From: Martelella mediterranea
Lineage (GTDB): Bacteria; Pseudomonadota; Alphaproteobacteria; Rhizobiales; Rhizobiaceae
Assembly: GCF_004342225.1 (NCBI RefSeq)
Contig: NZ_SMAR01000002.1
Location: forward strand, 62,001-126,000
Direction: 5' to 3'
DNA length: 64,000 nucleotides
Positions 3,833 through 49,090 of this stretch are shown here, in pieces; the first letter of the stretch is position 1, and each line of letters starts with the position of its first letter. The translations under genes were made by a program, and so were the position numbers. The notes beneath the pieces were generated by a model. That model was not told the DNA's origin, searched no databases, and saw nothing but the letters and a program-made list of their open reading frames with translations.

Positions 3833-5814
3833 GCATAGGTCTCCTTGGCCTTTTCCATGTCGCTCTTAACCTGTTCGGCAGGCACATAGTAATCACGATC
3901 GAAGTCGAAGGTGTGGGCGATGATCGTGCCGACAGCTGCGATAAAGCTGACCGCAACAAGCCACCAGATATGCCAGACCAGAGCAAAGCCGAGCACCAGG
4001 CAAATGCCCGCCGGAACGATACCGGCCCAGGTGTATTTCGGCATATGGATCGGCTGGTAATCCGTCGACCACTTGAAGCCTTCCTTCTTCATCTGCCACC
4101 AGGCATCGCGTCCGTGAACGACGATATCCTGCGGGAAGTTGTAGGGCAGAACCGGCGAAGTCGTTGCCCATTCCAGGGTACGGCCATTCCACGGGTCAGG
4201 ACCGCACTTCAGCTTGTCGCGGTTCTTGATCGTGACAATGAGCTGGATAACCGTGCAGGCGATACCAGCACCGATGACCAGCATACCGATGCAGGCAATA
4301 ACGAAGTAGATCTGCCAGCCGACATCAGAGTAGCTCTGCAGACGACGGGTCACACCCATCAGGCCGAGAACGTAAAGCGGCATGAAGGCCAGGTAGAAGC
4401 CGATCAGCCAGCACCAGAAGGAGCGACGGCCCCAGGTATCGTCGAGCTTGAAGCCGAACAGCTTTGGCCACCAGTAGGTATAACCGGCCATCAGGCCGAA
4501 CACGACACCGCCGATGATCACGTTATGGAAGTGCGCGATCAGGAACAGCGAATTGTGCAACTGGAAGTCAGCTGGCGGGACAGCCAGCATAACACCGGTC
4601 ATACCACCAATCGTGAAGGTGACGAGGAAGCCAACTGTCCAGTACATCGGCGTTTCGAAGCGGATCTTGCCGCGATACATTGTGAACAGCCAGTTGAAGA
4701 TCTTCGCGCCCGTTGGCACAGCGATAATCATCGTCGTGATACCAAAGAAGGTATTCACGCTGGCGCCGGAGCCCATGGTGAAGAAGTGATGCAGCCAGAC
4801 GATAAACGACAGAACCATGATACAGGCCGTCGCGTAGACCATCGAACGATAACCGAACAGCGGTTTGCCGGAGAAGGTTGCAACGACTTCGGAGAAGATA
4901 CCGAAACAGGGCAGGATCAGAATGTAGACTTCCGGGTGCCCCCAGATCCAGATGAGGTTCACATACATCATCGGATTGCCGCCCATGTCATTCGTGAAGA
5001 AATGCATGCCGAAGTAACGGTCAAGGGCGAGCATAGCCAGTGTGGCCGTCAGAACCGGGAAGGCTGCAACAATCAGAACATTGGCGCACAGTGTGGTCCA
5101 GGTGAAAACCGGCATCCGCATCAGTGTCATGCCCGGCGCACGCATCTTGAGAATGGTGGCGATCATGTTCACACCGGATAGCGTCGTTCCTATCCCCGCG
5201 ATCTGGAGAGACCATATATAATAGTCGACCCCCACATCGGGCGAGTATGCGATTCCCGAAAGTGGCGGCATGGCAAGCCAGCCGGTCCGGCCCAGAAGAC
5301 CGATGAACAGGGAGATGTTCAGCAGGATCGCGCCGGACACCGTCATCCAGAAGGAGAAGTTGTTCAGCCACGGAAAGGCCACATCACGCGCGCCGATCTG
5401 AAGCGGCATGGCGATGTTCATCACGCCGACCAGAAAGGCCATGGCGAAGAAGAAAATCATGACCGTGCCGTGAGCGGTAAAAATCTGGTCAAAATGGTGC
5501 GGCGGCAGATAGCCTTGGGCGCCACCAGCAGCGATGGCCTGCTGGGTTCGCATCATAAAGGCATCTGTGAAGCCGCGGAACAGCATCACCAGCGCGAGGA
5601 CGACATACATGATGCCGATCTTCTTATGGTCAACCGAGGTGAACCATTCGTTCCAGAGGTAAGCCCATTTGCGATGATAGGTGATCAGACCGAATACGGT
5701 CAGACCGGCAATCACCACAGCGGCGAAAGTGACATCCAGAATCAGGACATCATACGGGATGTCATCCCATCCGAGCTTACCGAAAAGGAAGCTCGTTGTG
5801 CTATCAGCTGCCAT
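3829..5814 (-). CDS. cyoB: Cytochrome bo3 ubiquinol oxidase subunit I
   Basis: A 661-residue catalytic subunit of the quinol-oxidising, proton-pumping heme-copper oxidase (E. coli: 663). The metal ligands are all present: the low-spin heme His in [10 protein letters not shown], the Cu-B His and cross-linked Tyr in [12 protein letters not shown], the His pair in [10 protein letters not shown], and the heme His residues in [12 protein letters not shown]. About fifteen hydrophobic helices are visible. The start ATG shares one base with the cyoA TAA. With cyoA, cyoC and cyoD it forms the terminal oxidase of an aerobic respiratory branch that bypasses cytochrome c. Confidence 0.97.
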
Positions 5815-8255: not shown

Positions 8256-9881
8256 ATGAATGCCACTCTTGAGGATATCAAGGCCGCAGCCGGAAAGACC
8301 GACGCGACCGATCTTCGCGCAGCCTTTGCCGCTGATCCTGAACGCTTCAAAAATTTCAGCCTCCGCTTTGAAGACCTGCTGATGGATTTTTCCAAAACAG
8401 CCATTAACAGCGAGGTCCTGGCGCTTCTGGTTAAACTGGCCAAGGAAGTCGGTGTTGAAGAAAAACGAGCGGCGATGTTCTCCGGCGAGAAAATCAACAT
8501 CACCGAAGACCGTGCTGTTCTGCACACGGCGTTGCGCAACCGTGCAAACACACCGGTCATGGTCGACGGCAAGGATGTCATGCCGGACGTCAATGCCGTG
8601 CTTGAGGCCATGGGACAGTTTGCCGAGGGCATCCGCTCCGGCGCAACCAAAGGCGCAACAGGCAAGACGTTTACAGATGTTGTCAATATCGGCATTGGTG
8701 GCTCGGACCTCGGCCCGGCGATGACGACGCTGGCGCTCGCCCCATTCCACGATGGTCCGAAACTTCATTATGTTTCAAATGTCGATGGCGCGCACATCGC
8801 CGACACGATCAAGGACCTTGATCCGGCCACGACACTTTTCATTGTCGCCTCAAAAACCTTCACCACCATCGAAACGATGACCAATGCCAAAACGGCGCGC
8901 AAGTTCATCGCCGATGCACTGGGAGAAGAGGCAGTCGGCCATCATTTCTGCGCTGTATCCACTGCGCTCGAAAAAGTCGCCGATTTCGGAATCGAACAAG
9001 ATCGCGTCTTCGGTTTCTGGGACTGGGTTGGTGGCCGCTACTCGATCTGGTCTGCGATTGGCCTGCCGCTGATGATCGCCATCGGCGCTGAGGATTTCGG
9101 CAGGTTTCTGGATGGTGCCCACGCCATTGACAAGCATTTCCAGGATGCCCCGATCACAGAGAACCTGCCCTTCATGTTGGGCCTGATCGGCTACTATCAG
9201 CGCGTTGTGCTCGATTATCCCTCTCGTGCGGTCATCCCGTATGATCAGCGCATGTCGCGCTTTGCCGCTTATCTGCAGCAGCTCGATATGGAATCAAACG
9301 GCAAATCGGTTACCGTCGGCTCTGAAGATGTTACCACGCCAACCGGACCGATTGTCTGGGGCGAGCCTGGAACGAATGGCCAGCATGCCTTCTTCCAGCT
9401 TCTGCATCAGGGTACAAATATCATCCCGATCGAGTTCATGATCGCCGCCAACGGCTTCGAGACGGATCTGCGCCACCAGCATCAGCTTTTGATGGCGAAC
9501 TGCCTGGCACAATCCGAAGCGCTGATGAAGGGCCGCACGCTGGAGGAAGCCAAGACACAGCTTCTGAACAAGGGGAGCGATGAGGCAACTGCGGACAAAA
9601 TTGGACCTCACCGGGTCTTCTCCGGCAACCGCCCCTCAATCACCTTCGTTTACGACAGCCTGACACCATACGCGCTTGGCCGGATGATCGCTCTTTATGA
9701 GCACCGGGTCTTTGTTGAAGGTGCCCTTTTCGGCATCAACTCTTTCGACCAATGGGGTGTTGAGCTTGGTAAGGAGCTGGCAACCGGCCTTCTGCCGGTC
9801 GTATCAGGCAAGGAAAGCGCAGACGACCACGATTCATCGACGGCAGGGCTCGTCTCCACCCTGCTTGGGATGGCGAAGTAA
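8256..9881 (+). CDS. pgi: Glucose-6-phosphate isomerase
   Basis: A 541-residue cytosolic enzyme interconverting glucose 6-phosphate and fructose 6-phosphate. Both family signatures are present: the sugar-phosphate site [13 protein letters not shown], the first signature [13 protein letters not shown], and [14 protein letters not shown] with the catalytic His; the conserved Lys sits near the C-terminus in [13 protein letters not shown]. Length is normal for the bacterial/eukaryotic type. It is monocistronic between two terminators. In rhizobia that lack a full Embden-Meyerhof route this enzyme mainly recycles fructose 6-phosphate into the Entner-Doudoroff and pentose phosphate pathways, matching the nearby transaldolase. 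Confidence 0.97.
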
Positions 9882-9895
9882 CCATACACCGACAC

Positions 9896-9936
9896 AAAAA
9901 GCCGCGCTTCAACCAAAAGCGCGGCTTTTTTATTCT
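9896..9936. terminator. Bidirectional terminator between pgi and the small-protein array
   Basis: AAAAAGCCGCGCTT pairs with AAGCGCGGCTTTTT around a short loop; T-runs flank it on both strands, so it can end pgi (+) and the array (-), which converge here. Confidence 0.88.
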
Positions 9937-9947
9937 TTCTCAGTATC

Positions 9948-10205
9948 TCAGCCATTTTGCTGGTTCGGCAGCTCATACTGATACATCAGTTTCAGTGATT
10001 TATCCGGCTGCACTTTAAAGACGTTGCCATAGCGCGTCCCGAATTTACCGGTTGAATCAATTGTAACGGTACTTCCAACCGGTGCCTTGCTGACCATTCC
10101 GGTCTGAGGCACGGCACTCGGATCTGGAAGATATGGTTTTGCCATGGCCGGTGCTACGGCGAAGGGCAATAGAACAGCAATTGTAATAGCAAGTTTCTTC
10201 ATCAT
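9948..10205 (-). CDS. Small exported protein, array copy 1 (unrecognised family)
   Basis: An 85-residue protein with a signal peptide (basic MMKK, hydrophobic core, cleavage after APAMA) and a mature part of about 63 residues without cysteines. Shared family features are P-x-TG-x-V-S-KAPVGSTVTI, then KFGT, N-V-F-K-V and D-x-SL. It pairs with copy 2 as a subclade (KFG..., VQPD) distinct from copies 3-6. GGGAG lies about 7 nt before the start; ATG at 10202 is an alternative. Last gene of the array, ending at a bidirectional terminator. Function unknown; expected in the periplasm or outside the cell. Confidence 0.8.
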   Translation of the reverse strand: MMKKLAITIAVLLPFAVAPAMAKPYLPDPSAVPQTGMVSKAPVGSTVTIDSTGKFGTRYGNVFKVQPDKSLKLMYQYELPNQQNG

Positions 10206-10291
10206 GCTTCTCCCGTTTTGATCTATAAAAGGGACTACGCATCTCGCTTGCCGGAAGTTTCAGAAAAACCGTTCCCGGCCCGTTTTGCAGC

Positions 10292-10307
10292 TTCAACTTA
10301 TGTTGAA
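10292..10307 (-). other. Small hairpin upstream of array copy 1
   Basis: TTCAAC / GTTGAA stem of 6 bp with a TTAT loop. It sits about 87 nt before the copy 1 start, farther away than the leader hairpins of copies 3-6. Confidence 0.35.
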
Positions 10308-10323
10308 CGCGAGGGCAAACCGA

Positions 10324-10560
10324 TCAGTTATCATTGGTATTGATCGGATATTGCGTAATGAATTTCAGCGAACCGTCCGGCTGCACACGAAAAACATTCT
10401 GATACTCGCCCCCGAACTTGCCAGTGCCCTGAATGGTGACTGTGCTGCCAACCGGCGCCTTCGAAACCTTCCCGGTTTCAGGGATGGCGGAATAGTCAAT
10501 CGCATAGGCAGCCGGTGCAAGCAGCAATGCCAGTACACTGAAGATAACCCTTGCTTTCAT
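10324..10560 (-). CDS. Small exported protein, array copy 2 (unrecognised family)
   Basis: A 78-residue protein starting MKARVIF, with cleavage predicted after PAAYA and a mature part of about 58 residues lacking cysteines. The start at 10560 is chosen because GGGAGAG lies just upstream; a longer reading to 10617 would run into the strong hairpin at 10594. The core matches the family: IPETGKVSKAPVGSTVTI, GKFGGEY, NVFRVQPDGSLKF. It is closest to copy 1. Function unknown. Confidence 0.8.
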   Translation of the reverse strand: MKARVIFSVLALLLAPAAYAIDYSAIPETGKVSKAPVGSTVTIQGTGKFGGEYQNVFRVQPDGSLKFITQYPINTNDN

Positions 10561-10593
10561 CCTTGCTCTCCCGTCACCGCCATAGCTGACAAC

Positions 10594-10627
10594 AATAAAG
10601 TGGGCGGCCTGCGCCACCCACTTTATT
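10594..10627 (-). terminator. Strong hairpin between array copies 3 and 2
   Basis: AATAAAGTGGG pairs perfectly with CCCACTTTATT (11 bp), extended by GGC/GCC after one mismatch, with a 4-nt loop. No long T-run follows, so it may be a partial terminator or a processing/stability element that sets different levels for copies 1-2 and 3-6. Confidence 0.55.
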
Positions 10628-10654
10628 GCCTGTATCTGACCAAATGAAGGCTGA

Positions 10655-10888
10655 TCAGTTCCCGACGCTTTCCTGGAAAACGAAGTTCAGGGAACCGTCT
10701 TCGCCAACGCGGTAGTAGTTCATGTGCTTCGTGCCAAACTGGTCGGTCGACTCGATGGTGACCGGAGAACCAGCCGGAGCCTTTGTCAGCGTGCCGGTCT
10801 CCGGCAGAGCGTTCGGCTGAACAGCGAAGGCTGCAGGAGCAGCGGCAAGACCGGCGGCTACGGCGGCAATTGCAAAAACATTGTTCAT
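10655..10888 (-). CDS. Small exported protein, array copy 3 (unrecognised family)
   Basis: A 77-residue protein (start MNNVFAI at 10888, with GGGAG upstream) with a 22-residue signal peptide ending PAAFA and a mature part of about 55 residues. The conserved core reads NALPETGTLTKAPAGS, then DQFGTKHMNYYRV, EDGSLNFVFQ. It ends in ESVGN where copies 4-6 end in EGIGD, making it the most diverged member of the 3-6 subclade. No cysteines. A leader hairpin lies 15 nt upstream. Function unknown. Confidence 0.82.
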   Translation of the reverse strand: MNNVFAIAAVAAGLAAAPAAFAVQPNALPETGTLTKAPAGSPVTIESTDQFGTKHMNYYRVGEDGSLNFVFQESVGN

Positions 10889-10903
10889 GATAGTCTCCCT
10901 GGT

Positions 10904-10939
10904 ACCAGCCATCGACCTTGCTTTACCGGTCAGGCTGGT
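10904..10939 (-). other. Leader hairpin of array copy 3
   Basis: ACCAGCC / GGCTGGT, 7 perfect base pairs over a 22-nt loop, with an alternative pairing ATCGACC / GGTCGAT. It abuts the ribosome-binding site, 15 nt before the ATG. Confidence 0.5.
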
Positions 10940-10977
10940 CGATTCTAATTATTTATCTTTTGCATTCAGCGACTTAA

Positions 10978-11211
10978 TCAGTCACCAATGCCTTCCTGGA
11001 AGACGAATTCAAGCGAACCGTCTTCAGCAACGCGGTAGTAGTTCATGTATTTCGTACCAAACTGATCGCGGGCTTCGATGTTGACAGTAGAACCAACAGG
11101 AGCCTTGGTCAGCGTGCCGGTCTCCGGCAAAGCGTTCGGCTGAACAGCGAAGGCTGCAGGAGCAGCGGCAAGACCAGCAACAACGGCGGTGATTGCAAAA
11201 ACGTTTTTCAT
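10978..11211 (-). CDS. Small exported protein, array copy 4 (unrecognised family)
   Basis: A 77-residue protein starting MKNVFAITAV (GGGAG upstream supports 11211 rather than 11244), with signal peptide cleavage after PAAFA. The mature part carries NALPETGTLTKAPVGS, RDQFGTKYMNYYRV and EDGSLEFVFQEGIGD. It is nearly identical to copy 5 at both protein and DNA level, with a long identical DNA block over the signal-peptide region, pointing to recent duplication or gene conversion. Function unknown. Confidence 0.82.
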   Translation of the reverse strand: MKNVFAITAVVAGLAAAPAAFAVQPNALPETGTLTKAPVGSTVNIEARDQFGTKYMNYYRVAEDGSLEFVFQEGIGD

Positions 11212-11227
11212 TGTATTTCTCCCTGCT

Positions 11228-11259
11228 GCCAGCCACCTCTGCATGAGTATGTGACTGGC
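11228..11259 (-). other. Leader hairpin of array copy 4
   Basis: GCCAG-C-CAC pairs with GTG-A-CTGGC (8 pairs, one mismatch) over a 14-nt loop. It lies 16 nt before the ATG, the same place as in copies 3 and 5 although the sequence differs. Confidence 0.5.
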
Positions 11260-11303
11260 TCAGTTTCTTTTTTGTTTTATAATTTCAGTCTGCTGGCGTC
11301 AGA

Positions 11304-11537
11304 TCAGTCGCCAATGCCTTCCTGGAAGACAAACTCCAGCGAACCGTCTTCAGCAACGCGGTAGTAGTTCATGTACTTGGTACCGAACTGATCGTTGGAA
11401 GCGATTGTTACGGTCGAGCCAGCCGGAGCCTTGGTCAGTGTGCCGGTGTCCGGCAGAGCGTTCGGCTGAACAGCGAAGGCTGCAGGAGCAGCGGCAAGAC
11501 CAGCAACAACGGCGGTGACTGCAAAAACATTTTTCAT
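11304..11537 (-). CDS. Small exported protein, array copy 5 (unrecognised family)
   Basis: A 77-residue protein with the same plan: MKNVFAVTAV signal peptide cleaved after PAAFA, then NALPDTGTLTKAPAGS, NDQFGTKYMNYYRV and EDGSLEFVFQEGIGD. No cysteines and a slightly acidic mature part; the spaced V/T/I and F/Y pattern suggests beta strands. Start-to-start distance to its neighbours is about 325-340 bp, the repeat unit of the array. GGGAG ribosome-binding site. Function unknown. Confidence 0.82.
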   Translation of the reverse strand: MKNVFAVTAVVAGLAAAPAAFAVQPNALPDTGTLTKAPAGSTVTIASNDQFGTKYMNYYRVAEDGSLEFVFQEGIGD

Positions 11538-11553
11538 GGTATTTCTCCCTAGT

Positions 11554-11588
11554 ACCAGCCTTGTTGAATATGGCTTTTGGCGGCTGGT
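11554..11588 (-). other. Leader hairpin of array copy 5
   Basis: ACCAGCC / GGCTGGT, 7 perfect pairs over a 21-nt loop, 16 nt before the ATG and directly ahead of AGGGAG. Confidence 0.5.
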
Positions 11589-11638
11589 TCGGTTTGCATA
11601 TTTTTCTGATTTCGTTTTTTGATCAGCGTCAGCGGCGA

Positions 11639-11875
11639 TCAGTCGCCAATGCCTTCCTGGAAGACGAATTCAAGCGAACCATCTTCATTCACGCTGTAAT
11701 AGTTCATGTATTTCGTGCCGAACTGGTCTTTGGAAGCGATTGTTACGGTCGAGCCAGCCGGAGCCTTGGTCAGTGTGCCGGTGTCGGGCAGAGCCGTTGG
11801 CTGAACAGCGAAAGCTGCAGGAGCGGCTGCGAGGCCAGCAGCAACGGCGCTGATAGCAATAAGGTTTTTCATCAT
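11639..11875 (-). CDS. Small exported protein, array copy 6, first gene of the array (unrecognised family)
   Basis: A 78-residue protein (MMKNLIAISAV; the second Met gives 77) with a signal peptide ending PAAFA and the family core TALPDTGTLTKAPAGS, KDQFGTKYMNYYSV and EDGSLEFVFQEGIGD. As the first gene transcribed it lies below the only long AT-rich intergenic region of the array, which should hold the promoter. AAAGGAGAG is the ribosome-binding site. Function unknown. Confidence 0.82.
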   Translation of the reverse strand: MMKNLIAISAVAAGLAAAPAAFAVQPTALPDTGTLTKAPAGSTVTIASKDQFGTKYMNYYSVNEDGSLEFVFQEGIGD

Positions 11876-11886
11876 TCTCTCCTTTG

Positions 11887-11904
11887 AACAGAAGCTTGTC
11901 TGTT
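11887..11904 (-). other. Leader hairpin of array copy 6
   Basis: AACAGA / TCTGTT, 6 pairs with a 6-nt loop, about 11 nt before the ATG. Sequence unrelated to the hairpins of copies 3-5 but in a similar position. Confidence 0.4.
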
Positions 11905-11926
11905 TGTTCGATGACCGGGAGATATG

Positions 11927-11955
11927 ATTTAATCACTCGATTAACAAGTTGTCGA
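11927..11955 (-). promoter_or_regulatory. Candidate promoter of the small-protein array
   Basis: On the minus strand TCGACA and TTAAAT are separated by 17 nt, resembling a housekeeping sigma -35/-10 pair (5/6 and 4/6 matches). A start near 11920 would give a short leader holding the copy 6 hairpin. Confidence 0.35.
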
Positions 11956-12260
11956 AATTCGAATTTTGTGTTCGCTTTTCGTTGACGACAAAACCCTTGA
12001 ATTCTCTCTTAAATCTGTGCAAGCAGGGAAATCATTATTTTTCAAAGACTTTCATAAAACAGACACATTGCAAAAGACTTCCGAGAGACCCTTATTTTCA
12101 GGGGATCACGACGTTTTTATCGGAATATTTTTATAACTTCGTATTCTTGAAGCGCACTGCAGGTCAATCAAACGCAACTTTTTATATACATATTCGAAAG
12201 TAAGCAGATTAAGGATTGCTGAACACCGCGCAGCTGTGGCCTGCCACGATAGGCCATACA

Positions 12261-12287
12261 AAAAGCCCGGCGCGAGCGCCGGGCCTT
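12261..12287 (-). terminator. Terminator of tal
   Basis: GCCCGGCG / CGCCGGGC stem of 8 bp (extended by A-T pairs and a wobble) with a 4-nt loop; on the minus strand it is followed by TTTTTGT. Confidence 0.85.
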
Positions 12288-12324
12288 GAAAAGCACAATA
12301 CGTTCAGACGATGTTGCGCCGGAA

Positions 12325-13281
12325 TCAGGCGTCGAGCTTTTCCGCAACAATGGTGCGCAGCTTGCCAAGGTCCTTGGCAAAGTTCCGAATGCCTTCAGCC
12401 AGCTTCTCGGTCGCCATTGCATCTTCGTTCAGCATCCAACGGAAGGTCTGCTCGTCCATCTTGATCTTTTCTTCCGGCTCAAAAGCCTCCGGAGACAGCT
12501 TGCGCTCCAGCTTGCCTTCATCATTTGCCAGTTCTTCAAGAAGGTTCGGAGAAATGGTCAGACGGTCGCAACCGGCAAGACCTTCGATTTCACCGATGTT
12601 GCGGAAAGATGCGCCCATAACAACGGTTTTGATGTCGTTAGCCTTGTAATAGTTGTAGATCGAGCGAACGGAGACAACGCCCGGATCGGTTTCAGCGGTA
12701 TATTCCTCGCCAGTGGCGTTCTTGTACCAGTCAAGGATACGACCAACGAACGGCGAAATCAGAAACGCGCCGGCATCGGCACAGGCAATCGCCTGGCATT
12801 TGGAAAACAGAAGCGTCAGATTGCAGTCGATGCCTTCTTTCTGAAGCACTTCGCAGGCCCGAATGCCTTCCCACGTAGATGCCAGCTTGATGAGAATGCG
12901 CTCACGGCCAATACCGCGATCTTCGTAAGCCTTGATGATTTCGTGCGCCTTGGCAATCGAACCTTCCATGTTGAAGGACAGGTCCGCATCAACCTCTGTG
13001 GAGACACGGCCGGGCACGATGTTGACGAGCGCTGCGCCGACGTCAATTGCCAGACGGCTTGCTACCGCATCAACGACAGCTTCTTTCGAACCGGTCTGCG
13101 CCTTGCCCCATTTGATAGCTTCGTCGATCTGGTCGTCGAACATGTCGGTCGACAGGGCCTTCAGAACGATGGAGGGGTTGGTCGTGCAATCGACTGGTTT
13201 GAGTTTCTCAACGGCTTTGATATCGCCTGTATCTGCCACAACCGTGGTCATTTCGCGCAATTGGTCAAGTTTGGAAGCCAT
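12325..13281 (-). CDS. tal: Transaldolase (TalB type)
   Basis: A 318-residue class I transaldolase that moves a dihydroxyacetone unit between sedoheptulose 7-phosphate and glyceraldehyde 3-phosphate in the non-oxidative pentose phosphate pathway. The signature VDCTTNPSIVLKAL, the Schiff-base Lys in RILIKLASTWEG (near residue 130) and the phosphate-site segment SPFVGRILDWY are all present. The start at 13281 (MASKLDQLREM) has AAGGA 8 nt upstream and matches the family N-terminus; an upstream in-frame ATG at 13440 is not supported. Monocistronic with its own terminator. Confidence 0.95.
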   Translation of the reverse strand: MASKLDQLREMTTVVADTGDIKAVEKLKPVDCTTNPSIVLKALSTDMFDDQIDEAIKWGKAQTGSKEAVVDAVASRLAIDVGAALVNIVPGRVSTEVDADLSFNMEGSIAKAHEIIKAYEDRGIGRERILIKLASTWEGIRACEVLQKEGIDCNLTLLFSKCQAIACADAGAFLISPFVGRILDWYKNATGEEYTAETDPGVVSVRSIYNYYKANDIKTVVMGASFRNIGEIEGLAGCDRLTISPNLLEELANDEGKLERKLSPEAFEPEEKIKMDEQTFRWMLNEDAMATEKLAEGIRNFAKDLGKLRTIVAEKLDA

Positions 13282-13617
13282 GATATTCATCCTTCGTAAT
13301 CTGGGCCTGTGCTTTCGCCTGCGCACAGAAGAAAGACGGACCACTCTGCTTGAATAACGCCCGGCAGCCTGATCGCTGCCTCCCGCGCATTTGGTATTAC
13401 CGATATCGCGCCGCGATGATGTTTCAATGACTGTTTGCAAACATCGAAGCGGGAAGCAAGCCCGAAACCGACAACCTCCGTACGTAGTTCCACGTCCGGG
13501 CGTTTATTCGGGTAAATGCACCTTATCAATCGATTTAGGTATTGCATTGACGGCGCTCAACCCGAAATTAAAAAATGTGAATGGTTTCGCGCAGGTGTTT
13601 TGCAAGGCACTGGCATT
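13282..13617. other. Intergenic region upstream of tal
   Basis: 336 bp without a gene, between tal and the AraC/OGT fusion gene, both on the minus strand. It contains a perfect 12-bp palindrome TGTTTGCAAACA (13432-13443) and a second inverted repeat ATCGCG-C-CGCGAT (13405-13417), both about 125-160 bp before tal. These are plausible operators in the tal promoter region; no factor is identified. Confidence 0.45.
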
Positions 13618-48177: not shown

Positions 48178-48383
48178 GCAGCGCACCTCTGTGGCGTTCC
48201 TTAGCAGTACCTGTCTGCGGATTGCTATTCTTGACAAAGCACAAGCTTTTGCCAGAAAGCCGGTTTTCGCGCAAGCAACCTGCGGCACCAGAGGCCAGAG
48301 CGGGCTGTTATGCCGCAGCGCGACAAAAACAAGAACAGGCCCTTGCAAGCGCCCGAAGCTGGTGATAGCGTCCGGCTCATTCA

Positions 48384-48475
48384 CAGGGGGGCTCCGTATT
48401 GCCGGGGCTGAGATTGAAGGTGGCAAACCTTCTGACCCTATAGCTGATCTGGGTAATGCCAGCGGAGCGAGGTCA
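48384..48475 (+). promoter_or_regulatory. TPP riboswitch (THI element)
   Basis: The conserved cores are present in order: a G-rich 5' strand, GGGGCTGAGA, a variable hairpin (GAAGGTGGCAAACCTTC), ACCCT, CTGATCTGGGTAATGCCAGC, and a closing GGAG that pairs with CTCC (48392). It ends a few bases before the ykoF ATG and covers the ribosome-binding region (GGAGCGAGG), so translational control by thiamine pyrophosphate is likely. Confidence 0.95.
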
Positions 48476-48478
48476 AAC

Positions 48479-49090
48479 ATGTTTTCCGGTGCACAAGTCT
48501 CTCTCTATCCCATGACCGACGGTTTCGTCGATGTCATCCTTGATGCTGTCAGGGCGATGGATCCTTTCGCAGAAAAGCTCAGAATTGAGACGGATGATGT
48601 TTCAACACTGATGGTCGGCCCGCATGAGGCGCTTTTCGACGCGATGCACGCGCTTTTCGACAGCGCGGCGGCAACAGGCCACCATGCCGTGCTTCATGCC
48701 ACAGTTTCCCGGGGCTGCCCCGGCGAGCCGGATGATCCGATCTGCGCCGGGCCGCTTGATGCCGGAACCTTCGGGCCGCTGGAGGAACGCCAGCAACAGG
48801 CAATGACAGAAGTCCGGCAGACGCCCGCTTCAGGCTTGCGTGCCGACGGGCAATTCTCACTTTATGTGCCCGGCGCCACGATCCACATGGACGAGGTTTA
48901 TGGTTGCATCGACTTCCTGAAGCAGGCAGGCGTTTTCGCGAAATCGAAGAACTTCTGTACCAAGCTATCCGGTGACAGTTCGGCTGTTTTTGAAGCTTTG
49001 CATCAGGCATTCATTCGCTTTGGCTCACCCGCCGGACATGTCGCGCTCGACATTACGATTTCGGCCAACAGCCCCAGCCTCAAGAAGTAG
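48479..49090 (+). CDS. ykoF: YkoF-type thiamine/HMP-binding protein
   Basis: A 203-residue protein with two ACT-like repeats of about 95 residues (SLYPMTDGFVDVILDAV and FSLYVPGATIHMDEVYGCID), the YkoF family plan that binds thiamine or its pyrimidine. No signal peptide. The start is the ATG directly after the TPP riboswitch; the frame is open upstream through the riboswitch, which is not coding. First gene of a thiamine-precursor salvage operon. Confidence 0.9.
   Translation: MFSGAQVSLYPMTDGFVDVILDAVRAMDPFAEKLRIETDDVSTLMVGPHEALFDAMHALFDSAAATGHHAVLHATVSRGCPGEPDDPICAGPLDAGTFGPLEERQQQAMTEVRQTPASGLRADGQFSLYVPGATIHMDEVYGCIDFLKQAGVFAKSKNFCTKLSGDSSAVFEALHQAFIRFGSPAGHVALDITISANSPSLKK

Follow-up and report, generated by a model that had tools for sequence, protein, structure and literature searches.

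Six tandem genes for small, putatively exported proteins in Martelella mediterranea: a possible gene-dosage array within a wider Rhizobiaceae family

Why would a bacterium keep six consecutive copies of one small gene, and what might their products do? The question is raised by positions 9948-11875 of a 64,000-nt stretch of Martelella mediterranea DNA (contig NZ_SMAR01000002.1, positions 62,001 to 126,000; hereafter the window), where six paralogous minus-strand genes lie in tandem and encode small proteins with putative signal peptides. We numbered them from the gene nearest tal (copy 1, start 11875) to the gene ending at 9948 (copy 6). Our best reading, to which we assign a probability of about 0.5, is that they constitute a gene-dosage array for an abundant, soluble periplasmic protein of envelope or stress function, expressed from a dedicated promoter.

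A sequence-only reading of the window had described the arrangement, and open reading frames (ORFs) together with an alignment confirmed it: the proteins have 77-84 amino acids (aa), and successive starts are 323-358 bp apart (coordinates in Table 1). All six begin with MK, MN or MM, followed by a hydrophobic stretch and an AxA-type site. Judged by eye, the charged start, hydrophobic stretch and AxA of an export signal are present in every copy, which agrees with the exported product that had been proposed. The mature parts comprise 55-63 residues, lack cysteine and share a motif that had largely been read from the letters: P-x-TG-x-x-x-KAP-x-GS-x-V-x-I, followed by FG, N, V, D, SL and Q; this motif is invariant across the six copies, whose alignment holds 23 invariant columns in all. 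Among copies 1-4 the ratio of nonsynonymous to synonymous substitution rates (Ka/Ks) is 0.11-0.21, indicating purifying selection, and homologous arrays are present in 13 of 13 Martelella genomes; we therefore regard the copies as real genes.

The array holds both old and recent duplications. At the DNA level a single 258-nt repeat family spans copies 1-4; three of its members show 78-89% identity to the remaining one, which serves as the reference copy. Synonymous change separating copies 1-4 from copies 5-6 is at or near saturation. In the tree built from the 94 family members (below), copies 1-4 group with support of 99/100 and copies 5-6 with 96/54. The two subclades proposed earlier are thus recovered.

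Searches for a known family gave no confident assignment, as the sequence-only reading had also concluded. The six copies had no credible match in Pfam, NCBIfam, PHROGs or PDB sequences, and relatives (five full-length proteins and 37 mature parts) gave only sub-threshold, chance-like matches in Pfam and NCBIfam. Matches to the L37ae ribosomal protein, Tox-HDC, McbA and midcut-by-XrtH remained below threshold and were dismissed as chance-like, and antibody light chains, returned from PDB sequences by the six-copy profile at E values of 0.026 and worse, were taken as chance. Literature searches by term, which cannot locate the family by sequence, gave no paper on it among the results listed.

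Profile searches did find relatives. A profile built from the six copies alone (A1) detected them, at E ≤ 0.001, in 33 of the 199 Rhizobiaceae genomes searched, the window's own genome included. A wider profile (A2), which already contains the six copies and 11 rows from seven other sampled genomes, two of them Martelella, matched 44 of 247 Rhizobiaceae genomes and 21 of 109 genera, again counting our own; the six copies, themselves part of A2, match it over the mature domain at E 1.2e-25 or better. Members are present in all 13 Martelella genomes (own included), with 2 to 12 in each at E ≤ 0.01, and among the 40 other A2-matching genomes 14 carry one member and 26 carry two or more. The named Martelella records matched comprise five loci, from M. 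lutilitoris, M. mediterranea (two, one marked unverified), M. radicis and M. limonii. An order-wide sample gave matches in 5 of 297 genomes, own included, all five Rhizobiaceae; a class-wide sample gave 1 of 385, the window's own genome, and 0 of the 384 others, and since these wide searches score only part of the first-look candidates, misses are possible. Copy 5 had no match in phage records, nor copy 3 in plasmid records. This is a genuine small-protein family with real tandem amplification, undescribed as far as our searches reach. The earlier account recognised the paralogs and overlooked the wider Rhizobiaceae family with its lipoprotein members.

The family exists in two forms. We extracted 94 distinct members, 46 from Martelella and 48 from elsewhere. 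In the latter set a lipobox pattern is recognised in 37, and a further two (L024 and L074) have a cysteine near the expected place, making 39 lipoproteins; nine lack the feature. The lipoprotein genes are mostly scattered, with neighbouring pairs of lipobox-type start in genomes G138, G501 and G045, and the soluble form without a lipobox is often tandem: outside Martelella, soluble arrays were found in G061 (4 copies) and G534 (5 copies), which represent two other genera. The unnamed lipoprotein form has the consensus EPIPGSITYGGQPRTKLTKSPVGS...ETYxIQPDRSLxLxxR and is exemplified by RL_RS36540 (R. johnstonii 3841, pRL12) and RHE_RS27775 (R. etli CFN 42, p42f), both annotated as hypothetical protein. 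These lipoproteins are profile homologs of the array proteins, with the core KAP/KSP-x-GS ... V/I ... D-x-SL and the same exported size class. They differ in carrying a lipobox rather than an AxA signal peptide, in an extra N-terminal GSITYGGQ segment, in their occurrence as scattered genes or pairs, in an EcfG-type motif before 13 of the 39 and in lower codon adaptation (measured against a Martelella reference). The lipoprotein form was also found in 158 plasmid records (Rhizobium 126, Ensifer 14, Sinorhizobium 13, five others), of which 80 are predicted conjugative, so that plasmid spread of this form is possible.

In the 94-member tree a branch with support of 100/99 separates the Martelella members from the rest, and copies from one genome frequently fall together, which suggests that arrays expand or homogenise within lineages. 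A mixed-form tree omits the divergent rows L016, L073 and L074 and 32 of the 46 Martelella rows and adds seven rows. In it, copies 5-6 are joined by a stand-alone gene from genome G199 (100/98 for this trio), and 36 lipoproteins lie together with three soluble rows (97/88), the remaining soluble members being outside; the soluble rows need four changes on this tree, and with its long branches and few columns it does not settle the ancestral form.

Some Martelella members stand apart from the arrays at this locus. A stand-alone gene, L139 (G205:C1:61843-62004, minus strand), keeps the GSITYG segment typical of non-Martelella forms and may be the older copy of the genus. Genome G081 has dispersed arrays of three and two copies (L136 on G081:C48 and L137 on G081:C33) with proteins nearly identical across the contigs, suggesting recent copying of array units. 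Two adjacent and very distant members (L140, G207:C1:98000-103000; E 3.9e-8 and 0.009) have a strongly different KAP-GS core, and may point to a further subfamily.

Codon usage bears directly on output. The codon adaptation index (CAI) was calculated against 14 majority-strand ribosomal-operon ORFs of the same genome, which themselves score 0.57-0.83; the 54 window ORFs of at least 150 aa, some of them possibly spurious, have a median of 0.60 and a 90th percentile of 0.71. A cleaned 12-ORF reference changed the values of copies 1-6 given in Table 1 to 0.67, 0.79, 0.75, 0.76, 0.54 and 0.41. With this reference, 40 array genes of the 12 other Martelella genomes score 0.67-0.84 and the G061 array 0.74-0.79, and the remaining 44 members, mostly lipoproteins, have a median of 0.56 (range 0.37-0.75). 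Four of the five copies of the G534 array lie at 0.79-0.84 and the fifth at 0.60, the extra G081 arrays at 0.76-0.79, and two Martelella single genes at 0.53 and 0.71. Relative to their own flanking ORFs, 11 members outside the lipobox pattern (G061, L024 and L074 included) are higher by a median of 0.16, and the G061 array by 0.30-0.35.

These codons suggest a high output of copies 1-4. The sequence-only reading had taken the number of copies as a sign of dosage and an abundant product. That view is supported for copies 1-4 (CAI 0.69-0.81 against the window median of 0.60) and not for the whole array, because copies 5-6 score 0.60 and 0.45, belong to the other subfamily and lie beyond a strong inverted repeat. 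The repeat (10593-10628) sits exactly where codon adaptation falls, from copy 4 to copy 5, and the 75 nt preceding copy 5 fold at -36.3 kcal/mol; as a putative terminator, the hairpin could part transcription of the array into copies 1-4 and copies 5-6.

A second line of evidence lies upstream of copy 1, in a conserved promoter region that the earlier account, correct on the genes, had overlooked. The predicted promoter (Table 1), which we take to be of an alphaproteobacterial type, is proposed on the basis of conservation; a scan for E. coli-type sigma-70 promoters over 9800-12400 found none. A palindrome, possibly an operator, starts in the final two bases of the -35-like hexamer, and the rest of it lies in the spacer. 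Across the 13 Martelella genomes the exact palindrome occurs 13 times (two genomes have two, nine have one, and G081 and G207 have none) and its reversed control 0 times. Eleven of these 13 sites are at this array, always as CTTGTTAATC-N4-GATTAAA, whereas the two off-array sites, L111 in G199 and L112 in the window's own genome (where one of two exact palindromes is at the array), lack the CTTG. In a slightly looser pattern, CTTG with the palindrome precedes copy 1 in 11 of the 13 genomes, and also copy 2 in six. GTCAA is found in all 11 copy-1 upstream sequences listed and GTCAAC in nine of them; a CRACGC block, likewise present in nine of the 11, is not found in the window.

Several identities were considered for these upstream elements. 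A CtrA box, suggested by the TTAA half-sites, was rejected because the site is palindromic and its spacing differs from the consensus. An IHF-like match fits, by eye, some genomes only, and a literature text search with the palindrome half-sites gave nothing relevant among the results listed. Neither do we claim an RNA element in the copy-1 leader: a hairpin near the Shine-Dalgarno sequence can form in nine of 11 genomes and is unconvincing in the window (z -0.39), one of its pairs shows a compensatory change, and 61 of 500 shuffles reach its covariation score.

The same evidence can be set against the view that the array is a by-product of unequal crossing-over, bringing no gain in dosage, with copies kept by drift or gene conversion. 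Clusters of lineage-specific copies within single genomes and the low codon adaptation of copies 5-6 would be expected under such a history. Against it stand the occurrence of arrays in all 13 Martelella genomes and in two further genera, the strong purifying selection, the optimised codons of most array genes and the conserved promoter, and we regard a mere by-product as unlikely, though worth keeping in view.

Structure prediction, also proposed by the sequence-only reading, was performed with AlphaFold2 using an input of 22 Martelella sequences, and the mature parts of copies 2 and 6 were modelled. Both models show a three-stranded beta sheet with no helix of four or more residues, and they agree in placing the three strands after a mostly non-regular N-terminal part that carries the conserved P-TG-KAP-GS. 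Foldseek gave no match at E ≤ 0.001 against PDB (two models) or BFVD (one model), so that the predicted sheet has no significant structural counterpart in these sets.

A small all-beta fold with free edges, as modelled, would also suit secreted or surface building blocks, that is, beta-proteins whose edge strands would link them into fibres or a coat, or which would fill a biofilm matrix, and high codon adaptation and tandem copies would be in keeping with such a role. The best PDB match of a 37-row family profile is in fact a biofilm adhesin, Lap, with a weak, repeat-wise resemblance (E 0.0039 over the full chain, with none of the repeats significant by itself). This resemblance, however, reflects a common beta-hairpin pattern. 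Furthermore, no internal repeat was noticed by eye, most non-Martelella relatives look like envelope lipoproteins, and no export machinery was seen among the ORFs listed for six flanks, where no dedicated search was made. We consider the building-block role improbable, if still a serious alternative.

Lysozyme inhibitors (PliI, MliC/PliC) are small beta proteins that occur as soluble and lipoprotein forms. The array family resembles them in both respects, and its members could be binding proteins or inhibitors of outside attack of this general kind. PliI chains do appear among the weak Foldseek matches, at E 1.0 to 1.5, values far from significance; a three-strand domain is too small for a comparison of folds to be decisive. 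With a limit of E 0.1, neither Pfam nor NCBIfam linked any of the 37 members to such a family, and with neither a sequence match nor a significant structural one this role appears quite unlikely.

Least probable is distant membership of DUF1471 (McbA, BhsA, YhcN), the small periplasmic stress proteins of enterobacteria with many paralogs and a mixed alpha/beta fold that includes a helix: size, export, multiplicity and stress setting are alike, and copies 1-4 match McbA weakly in NCBIfam (E 0.0055 to 0.021), but these matches to NF040473 score 15.5-17.4 bits against a cut-off of 110, begin in the signal peptide and do not include copies 5-6, the 37 mature parts searched, which include window copies, have no match at E 0.1, and the predicted fold differs.

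The link to stress comes from the lipoprotein relatives. The motif GGAAC-N16-CGTT is reported for EcfG1 of R. etli (PMC3892343). In slightly loosened form (GGAAC-N16/17-CGTT, scored 150 to 20 nt upstream with at least three of the four tail letters required) it precedes 13 of the 48 non-Martelella members, and all 13 are lipoproteins (13/39). Dinucleotide shuffles gave a mean of 0.58 and a maximum of 4 in 300, and seven permuted motifs gave 0-3. The strict motif stands before three of the 48 within 200 nt. Some of the 13 resemble orthologous pairs (e.g. L025 and L026), and they are therefore not 13 independent events. This general-stress motif was missing from the earlier account of the family's setting. 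Neighbouring genes, read in six annotated records, include treZ-malQ with small hypothetical genes beside family members on two Rhizobium plasmids, an MscS-type channel and a cold-shock gene beside another member, and a BA14K gene beside one; two further records carried no annotation.

Around treZ-malQ (L113 and L115), the family member lies next to an island of small hypothetical genes, and the islands of pRL12 and p42f resemble each other; one other gene of the L115 island (4095-4304) also has an EcfG-like site.

In the gene-dosage reading that we prefer, copies 1-4 would be transcribed from a dedicated sigma-70-like promoter before copy 1, which is probably under the control of a regulator binding to the palindrome. 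Their translation rate would be high and their products, exported through Sec, would build up as soluble proteins of three beta strands. The most likely location is the periplasm, and there they may shield the envelope or keep it stable during stress. Copies 5-6 would be a more diverged, weakly expressed subfamily behind the hairpin, and the lipoprotein form of other Rhizobiaceae would often be under the general stress sigma factor EcfG. The array protein would thus work like other small stress-linked envelope proteins, as a member of none of those tested. Martelella is a genus of saline habitats.

A number of observations weigh against this reading. The EcfG motif was not found upstream of the window copies, and in Martelella it precedes 2 of 44 (shuffle mean 0.66), both cases being one paralog common to G081 and G207. 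A third of the lipoprotein relatives share the motif of the EcfG regulon; the Martelella arrays have another conserved promoter and 42 of the 44 upstream regions are without the motif, so that the stress link is carried over from relatives. The strict motif was likewise absent at the G061 and G534 arrays among the matches listed. Genome-wide counts of the strict motif were higher than the reversed control in three of six genomes, equal in one and lower in two; as they are not reliably above the control, single sites mean little. The neighbours in two other annotated records have no evident stress role. With regard to abundance, the 37 lipobox members also exceed their own flanking ORFs (CAI median +0.11), and part of the contrast is hence common to these small genes in general; they are short, and the single Martelella reference used for all genomes favours Martelella over the genera of G061 and G534. 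Inhibitor or polymer-forming roles are also compatible with the evidence.

A broader proposal is more tentative and, in our judgement, rather doubtful. The family might be a Rhizobiaceae envelope stress family that exists both as a low-dose lipoprotein controlled by EcfG and as a soluble bulk periplasmic protein made from codon-optimised tandem arrays under their own regulator in at least three genera. In Martelella it could rank among the most abundant periplasmic proteins, as a new kind of small-protein filler or protectant.

The analysis brings out a protein family that has no model in the libraries searched, together with a promoter motif that would tie it to a stress sigma factor in well-studied rhizobia. 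Should the array proteins prove dominant in the periplasm, a plentiful protein of which our searches gave no description would be present there. In three genera the soluble form goes together with tandem copies and ribosomal-type codon usage, which may be seen as a natural experiment in raising the output of a small exported protein.

Table 1 Features of the array and its surroundings in the window (CAI against the 14-ORF reference; pLDDT, predicted local distance difference test; pTM, predicted template modelling score)
Feature	Coordinates	Strand	Description	Evidence and remarks
Copy 1	11639..11875	-	78 aa, signal peptide (putative) + 55 aa mature part	ORF, alignment; CAI 0.69; tal-proximal
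Copy 2	11304..11537	-	77 aa	ORF, alignment; CAI 0.81; AlphaFold2 mature part pLDDT 86.3, pTM 0.68
Copy 3	10978..11211	-	77 aa	ORF, alignment; CAI 0.77
Copy 4	10655..10888	-	77 aa	ORF, alignment; CAI 0.78
Copy 5	10324..10560	-	78 aa	Second subfamily; ORF, alignment; CAI 0.60
Copy 6	9948..10202	-	84 aa (85 with alternative ATG at 10205)	ORF, alignment; CAI 0.45; AlphaFold2 mature part pLDDT 89.4, pTM 0.73
Predicted copy-1 promoter	11920..11948	-	-35-like CTTGTT (11948-11943), 17-nt spacer, -10-like ATATCT (11925-11920)	-10 by eye
Palindrome, possible operator	11929..11944	.	TTAATC-N4-GATTAA	Only window match at ≤1 mismatch
GTCAAC	11981..11986	-	Upstream of copy-1 promoter	Conserved
tal (transaldolase)	12325..13440	-	Upstream neighbour	ORF; adjoins array in 12/13 Martelella genomes; CAI 0.74
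pgi (glucose-6-phosphate isomerase)	8256..9881	+	Convergent neighbour	ORF; present in 7/13 fetched flanks; CAI 0.67
Strong inverted repeat	10593..10628	.	Copies 4/5 intergenic	16-nt arms, 4-nt loop
Terminator-like stem	9896..9930	.	Array/pgi convergent gap	14 pairs
Terminator-like stem	12265..12277	-	After tal, upstream of array	

The flanking ORFs, taken from their sequences to be tal and pgi, place the array where the sequence-only reading had put it, and the position next to tal is kept in nearly all Martelella genomes (Table 1). The tal gene of R. etli is described as induced by guanosine tetra- and pentaphosphate, (p)ppGpp (PMC3188799). At the other end, the stem in the convergent gap could serve both the array and pgi. 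Rfam at the gathering threshold gave no match at the array. Elsewhere in the window, at 48375-48488 on the plus strand, it matched a thiamine pyrophosphate (TPP) riboswitch with 54.4 bits against a gathering score of 54.3, and the nearby ORFs resemble a thiamine-precursor transport operon.

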